Source: Candidatus Omnitrophota bacterium
GTDB lineage: Bacteria; Ratteibacteria; UBA8468; B48-G9; JAFGKM01
Direction of reading: 5' to 3'
Length of the DNA stretch: 35,804 bases
Assembly (NCBI GenBank): GCA_023819225.1
Contig: JAMWCZ010000004.1
Coordinates: 1 to 35,804, forward strand
The notes below the pieces were generated by a model. The model had not been told where the DNA came from. It was given only the letters and a program-made list of their open reading frames with translations, and searched no databases. A program made the position numbers and the translations under genes. Below are positions 6,059 through 10,763 of the stretch, one piece after another (the first letter of the stretch is position 1; each line of letters opens with the position of its first letter).

Positions 6059-6679
6059 CTACTTACTGATTAACTGGATGTGTTTGAGCATTACAAGAGA
6101 TGATCTTTCTGCTTCATTGAGTTTGAATGTTATAAATCTTATGGTCTCTTCAATATTTGGTATCAGGACATATTCAAGCGCATTAACCCTTCTTCTTGTT
6201 CTTTCAATCTCTGTGGCAAAACATATCAGTTTGTTTTCAAGGAAGGCAAGGTTGAGTAATCTTTTTAATACCTCTTTACCTTTTTCTGAGAGATATTGAT
6301 GATATGGCGTGAGTAAGTAATCAGGTAGGAACCTATCAGAAGAAATATGTAGATAAATTTTTGCTACAGGAATATTAAAAAACCTCTTTGTCTCCTGTGA
6401 AAATCTGGCTTTGAAAAAGTCGTTTTCAATAAAGGCATTCCATATCTTTTCATCAATAAGTCCTTTCATCTTCAAAGTATCCAGGTAGAACTGTAATATC
6501 TCTTCCTCAACGGACTTTCTCTCTTCTCTTACTTTTCCTATAAGGGACCTGAATTCTATCAGAAGTTGTTCTTCTTTGTCTTTCAGGAGTTTATGTCCTC
6601 TTTTTGCAAGGAGTAATCTTTTTCTGAGTTTGAGAAGTTCCATCCTGTTAGGATTAACCTTCAGTTTCATTTTTACCAC
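6059..6679 (-). CDS. atpD: V/A-type ATP synthase subunit D
   Basis: [33 protein letters not shown] and C-terminal [22 protein letters not shown]. Confidence 0.93.
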
Positions 6680-8084
6680 TCCAGTGTTTTTCCATAATCT
6701 CAGGAGGTACCCGCTTTATCTCAGAGACAGGAAGTAGATGCAAAAGTTTCCAGCCGATATCCAGGGTTTGTTTTATTGTTCTCTCCTCATCTGTCTTCTG
6801 CGAGATGAATTCTTTCTCAAGTTGTCTTGCAAACGAAAGGTGTGCAATATCTGTTTCTGTAAGGGATGCCTCGCCTAAAACCACAGCAAGTTCTTCTGCT
6901 TCTTTACCTCTGGCATAAGATGCAAATAATTGACTTGCTATAGATGGATGGTCCTCACGGGTTAACTCTTTCCCTGTCTTTCTGTCAACACCTATACCTT
7001 TATCCCTTAATCTTGAAAGAGATGTAAGTATATCAATCGGAGGATATATACCTTTCAGATGTAGTTGTCGTGAAAGTATTATCTGTCCTTCAGTTATATA
7101 GCCAGTAAGGTCTGGTATGGGATGGGTTTTATCATCCTCAGGCATTGTGAGTATTGGTATCTGCGTGACAGACCCTCCCCTTCCTTTAATTCTTCCTGCC
7201 CGTTCATAGATGGTTGAAAGGTCTGTGTATAGATAGGAAGGATAACCACGGCGTCCAGGTATTTCATTTCTTGCAGCGGATATCTCCCGTAGTGCCTCAG
7301 CATAGTTTGTCATATCTGTCAGTATCACAACAACATGCATATTGAGTTCAAAGGCAAGATACTCTGCTGCTGTGAGTGCTACACGAGGGGTTGCTATCCT
7401 TTCTATCGCTGGTTCATCTGCAAGGTTGATAAATATAACACATCTTTCTATTGCCCCTGCTTCTATGAATTCCTTTTGAAAGAATGCTGCTTCTTCAAAT
7501 GTAATACCCATAGCAGCAAAGACAACCGCAAAGGCGGTCTCTTCCTTTTCAGATGGAATCTTTGCCTGTTTTACTATCTGTGTGGCAATAATGTTATGTG
7601 GAAGACCAGCCCCTGAAAATATAGGGAGTTTCTGTCCCCTGACTAAACTATTCAGCCCATCTATTGCTGATATCCCTGTCTGGATAAATTCTGATGGATA
7701 GTCCCGTCTTACAGGATTAATAGGAGAGCCATTTATATCAAGGTAGTGGTTGGGTATTATATCAGGTCCTCCGTCTCTCACTTTTCCCAGTCCTGTAAAT
7801 ACCCTGCCAAGCATTTCAGGGGAGACACCAGCCCTTATCCCCCTTCCTGTAAATCTAATCTTTGTGCTGTCTTTACTCAATCCGGATGTGCCTTCAAAGA
7901 CCTGAACGAGTGCCTTATCCTGATAAATCTCAAGGACCTTCCCTAATCTATTTTCCTTCTGCAAGGTTGAAATCTCAACGAGTTCTCCGTAAGAGGCACC
8001 TTCAATCCCTTCAATCAGTATCAGCGGACCAGATATGCTTTCTATGCTTTTATATTCACGGATTGTTTTTAATAAAGAATTCAT
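6654..8084 (-). CDS. atpB: V/A-type ATP synthase subunit B
   Basis: [84 protein letters not shown]. Confidence 0.95.
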
Positions 8085-8158
8085 AATATTTTATTATATA
8101 TCAGAATTTAGTTGTATTGCAAAATTTTGGTTTTTGTGTATTATACAAAAATAAACAA

Positions 8159-8213
8159 TGTAGCGGTGCAATTCATTACATGATGTAGCGGTCGGACTTA
8201 TCCGACGATGTTC
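8159..8213. repeat. Tandem 25-bp modular hairpin units (TGTAGCGG + variable-stem palindrome)
   Basis: TGTAGCGGTGCAATTCATTACATGA (8159-8183) followed directly by TGTAGCGGTCGGACTTATCCGACGA (8184-8208), then TGTTC at 8209. Confidence 0.7.
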
Positions 8214-8292
8214 TCCCTATATAAGGGGGAAGACAAAGTTAAGGGTGGAGAGTTGAGAAAAAAGAGAGAAAGGCGTGAGAGGTGAAAGATTT

Positions 8293-8347
8293 CCCTCCCC
8301 CTACCCCTCGCCCCGCACAGCGGGGAGAGGGTATGGGTGAGGGGAGG
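8293..8347. repeat. GC-rich palindromic intergenic repeat
   Basis: CCTCCCC (8294-8300)/GGGGAGG (8341-8347) outer and CCCCG (8311-8315)/CGGGG (8321-8325) inner inverted repeats. Confidence 0.7.
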
Positions 8348-8362
8348 CGGAAGATATGAGAA

Positions 8363-8395
8363 TGTAACGGGGCAATTCATTGCACAATGTAGAGA
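8363..8395. repeat. Additional copy of the 25-bp modular hairpin unit
   Basis: TGTAACGGGGCAATTCATTGCACAA (8363-8387) followed by a TGTAGAGA head at 8388; same period and same TTCA loop as the 8159 unit. Confidence 0.65.
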
Positions 8396-8424
8396 GTTTA
8401 GGATTTAAAGTTTGAGATTTTGAA

Positions 8425-8447
8425 GCATCGGAATTTCAATCCGATGC
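8425..8447. repeat. Perfect 8-bp-stem hairpin GCATCGGA-ATTTCAA-TCCGATGC
   Basis: Exact inverted repeat read directly. Confidence 0.8.
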
Positions 8448-8518
8448 GGGATTAGGGGGTGAACGGGGGAAACAATCTGGTTGCTCCCGTGGGGTGACAG
8501 GAAGCGAGAGCGATTATC

Positions 8519-8570: not shown

Positions 8571-10763
8571 ATGGATGTTCCAAAAACAGTTATAGACCGT
8601 CTGGAAGAACTTGGTGTATCTCTGAAAGATATTAAACTTACTGCTGTTGCTGACCTTGATATCCAGGGTGACTTTACCACTGTATGGGTCCTTGTGTCTT
8701 CTGAAAAGATTATGGCACTTCCAGAAAAAGGTAGAGGAATGGAAGTTATAGTGGAACTGAAAGATGTTGAAAGCACAAGGGTTTACTGTACAGTGGGAAG
8801 TGCCTTCTTTCAGGCAAGGGTTGGTGGTGTCTATATTGATATAGCAAGGTTTACCAATATTCTGCGTTATAAATTTGAAAGATTGTCATCCCAGATTGAA
8901 AATCTCAGAGCAGGCAAGTTAGTAGATAACAAAGTGCTTCAGGAGCCGCATCCCCTGCTTTGTAAGACCTGTGGTATGCCGTTAAGGGAAGAGGGTGCTG
9001 CCTGTCCCAGATGTGCAAAGGAAGGGGGGATGATAAAGCGACTGCTCTCTTTGATAATGCCATATATGCACTGGATGGTTGCTATATTCTTTATCACTGC
9101 AATAGCAGTGGGGTTTAACCTCGTTCCACCTCAACTTGTAAGAATTCTTGTTGATGATGTGTTGACCACCAAGCGTCATACCGAATGGCTTATATGGCTG
9201 GTACTTGCTCTTATAGGGACAGAGGTATTCCGTGCACAGTTTAATACGTTGATAGGAACACTTTCAACATCTGTGGGTACTTTGATAACATATTCTTTGA
9301 GGACCCGTATGTTCAGAAAATTACAGGAACTGTCCATTGACTATTATGACAAAAACTCTGCCGGTATGATAATGACAAGGTTCTCTTCAGATGTAGAGCA
9401 ACTCCATGGATTTGTATCCCAGATAGGACAGGGGTTCCTTATCAATATACTTTTATTTATAGGAATAGGTATTATGCTTTTTACTATCAATGCACGTCTG
9501 GCTATTTATGTACTTGTTCCTATACCCTTTGTTGTATCAGGCACATGGTTTTTCTGGCACAAGATTTATCCGAGATATTATAAACTCTGGGATAGTCAGG
9601 CAAAGATGTCCAGTTTCCTCCACAGTATAATATCAGGAATCCGTTTAGTGCGTGCATTTGCGCAGGAAGAAAAAGAGATAGAGCGTTTTGAAAAGAGGGC
9701 GATGAATTTAAGAGATGCGAACAGGGCGGTAAACTTAAGCGTTGCTGCTTTTAACCCGCTTATGGCTTTCTTTTTCAGTTTAGGTGGGTTGATTGTATGG
9801 TATGCTGGTGGTAAGAGTGTACTTGCTGAAAAATTAACATTAGGGGAATTGATGGCTTTTTTAAGTTATATAACAATGTTTTATACCCCGCTTTCAAGTT
9901 TAACCCTCCTTTCAAACTGGTTCAGCGGTTTTATTACTGCCACCCACCGTATATTTGAGATTCTGGATACCGAGCCCACGTTGAAACCACCTGCCCGGCC
10001 GGTAGATATAAAAAAAATAGAAGGTGATATTGAATTTAGAAATGTTACATTCGGATATGACCCATATCACCCTGTTCTTAAGAATATAAGTTTTAAGATT
10101 AACAAAGGAGAGATGATAGGTATTGTTGGAAAAAGCGGTAGTGGCAAGACAACGATTGTGAATCTTATATGTAGGTTTTACGACCCACAGCAGGGAGTGG
10201 TACTTTTAGATGGATATGACGCCAGGACTATTCCATTGGAAGTTATACACAGAAATATAGGGATTGTTTTACAGGAACCATTTCTTTTCAGGGGCACAAT
10301 AGCAGAGAATATCTCCTATGGAAATCCAAAAGCCACATATAAGGAGATTATTGCTGCTGCAAAGGCAGCAAATATACACGAGTCAATAATGCAAATGCCA
10401 AGTGGATATGATTTTTACCTCGGTGAAGGTGGGGCAGGGCTTTCAGGTGGTGAAAGACAGAGAGTAGGGATAGCAAGGGTGCTGCTGTGCGACCCGCCGG
10501 TTTTGATACTGGATGAGGCAACATCTTCGGTGGATACAGAGTCGGAGATAAAGATACAGGAAGCACTTGCTGTTCTTTGTAAGGGAAGAACAACCATTGC
10601 TATAGCACACCGCCTTTCAACTCTTAAAGATGCGGACAGGTTATATGTTATTGACAGAGGCAGGATTGTAGAGTATGGAAGTCATGAGGAGTTGATGAAG
10701 AGCCGTGGTATCTATTATAAACTTGTTGAGGCACAGACAAAACTTTCTACCATTGATGAATAA
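8571..10763 (+). CDS. ABC exporter (fused permease/ATPase) with N-terminal PH-like domain and CxxC...CxxC zinc ribbon
   Basis: Walker A GKSGSGKTT, signature LSGGERQRVGIARVLL, Walker B PVLILDEATSSVD, H-loop AIAHRLS; about 150-aa N-terminal extension with CKTCGMPLREEGAACPRC preceding the TM region. Confidence 0.93.
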   Translation: MDVPKTVIDRLEELGVSLKDIKLTAVADLDIQGDFTTVWVLVSSEKIMALPEKGRGMEVIVELKDVESTRVYCTVGSAFFQARVGGVYIDIARFTNILRYKFERLSSQIENLRAGKLVDNKVLQEPHPLLCKTCGMPLREEGAACPRCAKEGGMIKRLLSLIMPYMHWMVAIFFITAIAVGFNLVPPQLVRILVDDVLTTKRHTEWLIWLVLALIGTEVFRAQFNTLIGTLSTSVGTLITYSLRTRMFRKLQELSIDYYDKNSAGMIMTRFSSDVEQLHGFVSQIGQGFLINILLFIGIGIMLFTINARLAIYVLVPIPFVVSGTWFFWHKIYPRYYKLWDSQAKMSSFLHSIISGIRLVRAFAQEEKEIERFEKRAMNLRDANRAVNLSVAAFNPLMAFFFSLGGLIVWYAGGKSVLAEKLTLGELMAFLSYITMFYTPLSSLTLLSNWFSGFITATHRIFEILDTEPTLKPPARPVDIKKIEGDIEFRNVTFGYDPYHPVLKNISFKINKGEMIGIVGKSGSGKTTIVNLICRFYDPQQGVVLLDGYDARTIPLEVIHRNIGIVLQEPFLFRGTIAENISYGNPKATYKEIIAAAKAANIHESIMQMPSGYDFYLGEGGAGLSGGERQRVGIARVLLCDPPVLILDEATSSVDTESEIKIQEALAVLCKGRTTIAIAHRLSTLKDADRLYVIDRGRIVEYGSHEELMKSRGIYYKLVEAQTKLSTIDE

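Follow-up and report, generated by a model that had tools for sequence, protein, structure and literature searches.

A short array of hairpins in a 35,804-nt stretch of DNA from a Candidatus Omnitrophota bacterium (the window) very probably belongs to a family of REP elements copied by a REP-associated tyrosine transposase (RAYT, or TnpAREP). The transposase would read the head and the loop of each unit and would need the stem to pair, with only loose constraint on its sequence, and the family would be an orphan relic in the source genome (G000). This reading draws on the anatomy of the units, compensation within their stems, the bracketing of RAYT genes by units in relatives, the presence and absence of units at an orthologous site, and a complete lack of equal stems in inverted neighbours. 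An earlier note on this DNA had described constant heads and covarying stems; it missed the REP with its transposase partner, the majority of inverted dimers, and the unlike stems of inverted neighbours.

The array lies in a 486-nt gap between two genes, which holds three 25-nt units, starting at 8159, 8184 and 8363, together with other repeats.

6654-8084, minus strand: ATP synthase subunit gene, V/A-type (ATP-synt_ab), left neighbour of the array
8159-8183, plus strand: putative REP unit 1, TGTAGCG / GTGCAA / TTCA / TTACAT / GA, with one mismatch and one wobble in the stem
8184-8208, plus strand: putative REP unit 2, TGTAGCG / GTCGGA / CTTA / TCCGAC / GA, with a perfect stem, head-to-tail with unit 1 and abutting it
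8293-8347, no strand assigned: GC-rich palindromic dispersed repeat of the CCCCTCRCCC...GGGTGAGGGG family, outside the REP family
8363-8387, plus strand: putative REP unit 3, TGTAACG / GGGCAA / TTCA / TTGCAC / AA, with one mismatch in the stem
8388-8394, plus strand: TGTAGAG, possibly a head alone (no stem follows), at +25 nt from unit 3
8424-8447, no strand assigned: hairpin without a GTAG head, outside the family, GCATCGGA-ATTTCAA-TCCGATGC (z = -4.1)
8571-10763, plus strand: ABC transporter gene, right neighbour of the array

The three units were found where the earlier note had placed them, on a common plan of TGTARCG, a 6-nt arm, a 4-nt loop, a second 6-nt arm and 2 nt. The stems of the first two had been called palindromic; the stem is perfect in unit 2 only, as units 1 and 3 carry one mismatch each. 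A TGT at 8209, taken then as a fragment of a third head, is too short to be given any weight. At 8388, where the note had pointed to a sequence 25 bp after the third unit, TGTAGAG may be a bare head but no stem comes after it; the same string also follows a copy on contig C37 of the source genome. There is slight decay in units 1 and 3, but unit 2 is intact: its hairpin reaches -6.1 kcal/mol when folded as DNA, and its 25-mer recurs unchanged on contig C42 of the same genome (L204), although its loop, CTTA, departs from the usual TTTA or TTCA. Hairpins with TGTARCG and at least five of six base pairs number three in the window versus a mean of 0.09 in 300 dinucleotide shuffles, none of which reached three. 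The GC-rich palindrome at 8293-8347 had rightly been regarded as unrelated to the units; it is a separate dispersed repeat, very abundant and often clustered, with many loci in the source genome and in its congener G001. Sub-threshold matches to a miRNA family and a frameshift element all fell on this palindrome, and known RNAs were rejected. A CRISPR-like array was also rejected, as there is no constant repeat with unique spacers.

Across genomes the 25-nt unit reads TGTAGCG, GTNNNA, TTYA, TNNNAC and 2 nt, with GTAG at the 5' base of a short palindrome, as is expected of a REP. The loop is TTTA or TTCA in 314 of 337 units, a count for which it was left free in the own-genome search and fixed in the cross-genome patterns at the copies searched; units were partly chosen on the basis of the head, the loop and the outer bases of the stem, and never by pairing of the three variable positions. 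Both searches proposed earlier, of the genome and of relatives, brought further units to light. The strict form TGTAGCGGTNNNATTTATNNNAC occurs 17 times in the 1.52 Mb of G000, compared with 0 for the reversed control, and 53 relaxed units, as dispersed singles and inverted dimers, make up the own-genome sample, whose statistics were computed on selected stretches of G000. The GTDB genome collection contains at least 110 stretches with units. Among the matches listed there are MAGs of about ten phyla, with labels that include Omnitrophota, Ratteibacteria, Elusimicrobia, WOR-3, Stahlbacteria, Sumerlaeota, Zixibacteria, Planctomycetota, Bacillota/Clostridia and others. Within the genus the spread is patchy, the strict form being present in G000 and G001 and not found on searching congeners G002-G004. 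Viral contigs gave no match to the units, and a literature search found nothing on REPs in Omnitrophota or Elusimicrobia. Eight of 64 stem triplets (GCG, CGG, CGC, TTG, GGC, GCA, GTG and GCC) account for 245 of 257 perfect units, and the same few come back across phyla. A lone TGTAGCGGTGCAATTTATTGCAC unit, facing an overlapping partner, was seen in the cultured gammaproteobacterium Pantoea dispersa (L071:336-380). Long-loop relatives of the unit, in which CCCGCCACTAAA-ATTTGGCGGGCAGG separates the 5' arm from the TTTA loop, lie at L119:1445-1500, L221:258-322, L210:288 and L019:1501; some such relatives keep the 5' half only.

All three variable pairs are formed in 275 of the 337 units, compared with 56 after shuffling of the arms, in a sample that was not chosen for pairing at NNN and may count copies twice where loci overlap. 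Among 60 distinct units, five of the six pairs vary on both sides, 74 cells are changed on both sides versus 26 after shuffling, and shifting the partner column by 1-3 positions destroys the covariation signal; the sampling favours the fixed outer pairs and did not choose units by pairing at the three variable ones. With a covariation score of 0.518, against 0.141+/-0.019 after shuffling, this test of compensatory change upholds the original proposal that the head is constant and the stems co-vary for foldability and not for sequence. A paired change in situ was found at one orthologous unit with well-conserved flanks, where T-A in G000 is C-G in L089 (JAMWBP). G-U pairs occupy 15 cells.

It is conceivable, but rather unlikely, that this compensation is mutational: the hairpin itself would give rise to it by template switching or by correction of mismatches, and folding would not be under selection. 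Paired changes would then appear in one step, and units with mixed arms do exist (GTGTGA/TTGCAC in L137, and GTCGGA/TTGCAC on contig C40 of the source genome). The same mixed-arm units show, however, that correction is not automatic, and the fixed head and loop and the rule of different stems described below would be left unexplained. Mutational compensation may nevertheless act alongside copying of REPs by a RAYT.

The arrangement of neighbours was analysed for 338 units from 30 genomes, with pairs taken up to 70 nt apart. Linked copies are mostly inverted dimers of ~50 nt, along with some direct tandems of 24-26 nt like that in the window, and inverted heads-out pairs (n=76) outnumber direct pairs (n=45). 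The fixed period of 25 bp suggested by the window is seen as a spacing of 24-26 nt in 29/45 direct neighbours, but it is one spacing among several, and inverted dimers are commoner. Doublets are frequent, and near-identical inverted ones are repeated on contigs C82 and C90 of the source genome. In G062, identical CGG/GCG heads-out pairs, 46 nt apart, lie at the ends of contigs C41, C53, C62, C68, C72, C74 and C83 (first 120 nt), which suggests a longer repeated element carrying this dimer.

Inverted neighbours never have equal stems. Equal stems were counted in 0/76 heads-out neighbours (20.2 expected; 0/5000 permutations) and 0/21 heads-in neighbours (4.8 expected; P = 0.003), and in 13/45 direct neighbours (8.9 expected). 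Restricting the analysis to well-paired units gave 0/64, 0/20 and 8/37, respectively, and with one count per genome-by-combination there were 0/47 equal stems versus about 10.9 expected. Two separate hairpins are kept in the predicted DNA folds of 41/47 real heads-out dimers, and of 0/47 with the stems equalised. Other GTAG families at the same loci have unlike stems in 10/10 heads-out pairs sharing a head.

Equal-stem palindromes might break short-read assemblies, and it could be argued that the rule is an artefact of this kind, since the data are nearly all MAGs, many of them with short contigs, and a large number of the G062 units lie where a contig ends. This is quite improbable. Common assembly k-mers are longer than the palindrome of ~51 nt, which counts against such an artefact, as does the finding that heads-in pairs with spacers between them also show no equal stems. 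Moreover, a heterodimer preference was reported in 2013 for several other REP families, for which SbcCD protection was suggested (Di Nocera et al. 2013, PMC3733652). As an alternative to SbcCD protection, the two hairpins of a dimer may have to fold separately as transposase substrates; the data fit either.

Short HUH Y1 transposases bracketed by TGTAGCG units in three genomes of two phyla are candidates for the transposase partner.

L183, genome G029: bracketed RAYT
L064, Stahlbacteria JAUVZL, the same place as L270 of G391: bracketed RAYT
L271, genome G381: bracketed RAYT, with the right-hand unit copies decayed and the reading frame interrupted

These RAYTs carry H-L-H (HUH) and a candidate catalytic Y in YIQENP. 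They score 60-82 bits with NF047646 (REP_Tyr_transpos), two of the three falling below its cut-off of 80, and their closest solved structure is TnpArep, PDB 4er8 (E 2.7e-11). The L183 and L064 proteins are 64% identical and form one clade at 100/99, in a tree that also took in L186/L252 but not L271. Among 147 genomes of one phylum, both such RAYTs occur in two of the five genomes having at least five units. An Elusimicrobia RAYT (L186/L252) has units on both sides yet falls outside the L183/L064 clade, so in some cases REPs may simply have inserted next to a RAYT; it also has REPs of another family inside the gene, and is ambiguous as a cognate RAYT.

A search for a cognate RAYT in G000 at E<=1e-12 found none in this genome, which is 91.7% complete, and a cognate RAYT is also absent from several unit-rich genomes (G062, with 49 units, G061 and G394). 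The units of G000 therefore look like orphans, with a RAYT gene that has been lost, lies in the missing 8%, or is supplied from outside. Since REPs can outlast the loss of REPtrons (PMC3733652), the missing RAYT bears on activity in G000 and not on the kind of element. The two Y1 transposases of G000 itself were rejected as movers, having other terminal repeats (GGGGTCAGGTCTTGC..., of TIRtron type, and CCGCCCCCGCAGTGG...). At L031 (contig C52 of the source genome), L011:1421 and L137:4841, a TIRtron-type transposase with ends GGGGTCAGGTCTTGCTTTTTGCA and stray copies of its end were seen, the stray copies next to REP clusters.

The interval 8128-8517 spans 390 nt in the window versus about 51 nt in G001, which has no units there, between flanks that are 85-91% identical. 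G002 and G004 likewise have no units at the orthologous site. As units are missing in all three aligned congeners, the alignments favour gain of the array in the window lineage, together with the other repeats, rather than loss. The empty site in the nearest relative, along with the lack of a detectable cognate RAYT, makes it probable that the window array was inserted recently and has since decayed in part. L080 was rejected as an orthologous site because it shares no flanks with the array. A role in RNA, in which the units would be retained as terminators, mRNA stabilisers or processing signals and selection would act on RNA folding, is the least probable explanation: G-U pairs are present and REPs are often transcribed (PMC3733652), but the array lies between divergently transcribed genes, downstream of neither, a close relative lacks units at the site, Rfam gave no family match, and the fixed GTAG, 2 nt and TTYA fit the requirements of a DNA transposase.

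The REP elements proposed here resemble several described systems. GTAG-tagged REPs of families GTAG-1 and GTAG-2, which have stem variants and a heterodimer preference (Di Nocera et al. 2013, PMC3733652), share with them the GTAG head followed by two unpaired nucleotides ahead of the stem, a short 3' tail and RAYT association, as well as subfamilies with alternative complementary stem residues and inverted dimers that are often unlike-stemmed. In contrast to those families, the extra bases here are CG and not GW, the loop is TTYA, and the elements are from uncultured phyla. Several known REP families form mostly homodimers, whereas none occurs here in 97 inverted pairs. In REPtron Mb of Marinomonas sp. 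MWYL1 (group 3 TnpAREP), the transposase uses GTAG and a 2-nt gap and requires the loop T-T-N-A, while stem positions 2 and 3 are exchangeable and a mismatch is harmful (PMC8266576). REPMb has the same succession of GTAG, 2 nt, paired stem and TTTA loop, with a third loop position that is free, as TTTA and TTCA alternate here; its stem, however, is of 5 bp, whereas the present family has 6 bp and many stem variants side by side. By analogy, the RAYT of the family may behave like TnpAMb. Inverted REP doublets, or REPINs, are the apparent replicating unit in Pseudomonas fluorescens and are tied to a RAYT (PMC3116915). Inverted doublets are frequent here too, but the REPINs of Pseudomonas are symmetric and form one long hairpin, whereas these dimers are asymmetric, with a short head-head stem that bears two hairpins. 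A sister family, GTAGGGG-NNNNA-TTYA, found in the present analysis in L235, L236, L253, L039 and L128, has the same loop, the same inner stem (TCGGA..TCCGA) and related RAYTs, but its stem is of 8 bp and starts directly after GTAG. The units very probably constitute a new REP family of known kind with a probable cognate RAYT. What appears to be new is the family itself, its RAYT and the absolute form of the unlike-stem rule, the last being the most notable.

As REPs, the units would be non-autonomous hairpins, copied by the RAYT via single-stranded DNA. The transposase would recognise GTAG, the 2-nt gap, the TTYA loop and probably the stem ends, and would require a paired stem while being largely indifferent to its middle base pairs. 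With these pairs hardly read, any paired stem could survive, and a few would have been amplified; the recurrence of the same few stems across phyla speaks against free drift of the stem. Facing units would persist only with differing stems, since two equal ones would fold together as a single long, deletion-prone hairpin that hides both recognition hairpins. In G000, where no cognate RAYT was detected, the family would probably be an orphan relic. More tentatively, and with the balance tipped against it, the stems may be mutually orthogonal pairing codes: selection, and not mere tolerance, would keep facing hairpins unlike, each folding alone as a transposase substrate, and the repertoire of eight triplets would be kept across phyla, possibly as the RAYT reads part of the stem.

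An unnamed repeat of uncultured phyla is thereby tied to a probable transposase. Its constant head and loop and its free but paired stem make it a natural experiment, unusually clean, on what these transposases recognise, and the total lack of inverted dimers with equal stems is relevant to a preference for which, in 2013, no obvious explanation was said to exist. Transposase genes that hold their own substrates merit separate study. In related RAYT genes (L234, L252, L254, L255, L257, L260, L261 and L263-L269; around 1600-1870 in most of these loci), GTAG hairpins lie within the coding region at two positions that recur, mostly heads-out and with unlike stems. In L267, the REP family found inside the RAYT gene also flanks that gene.
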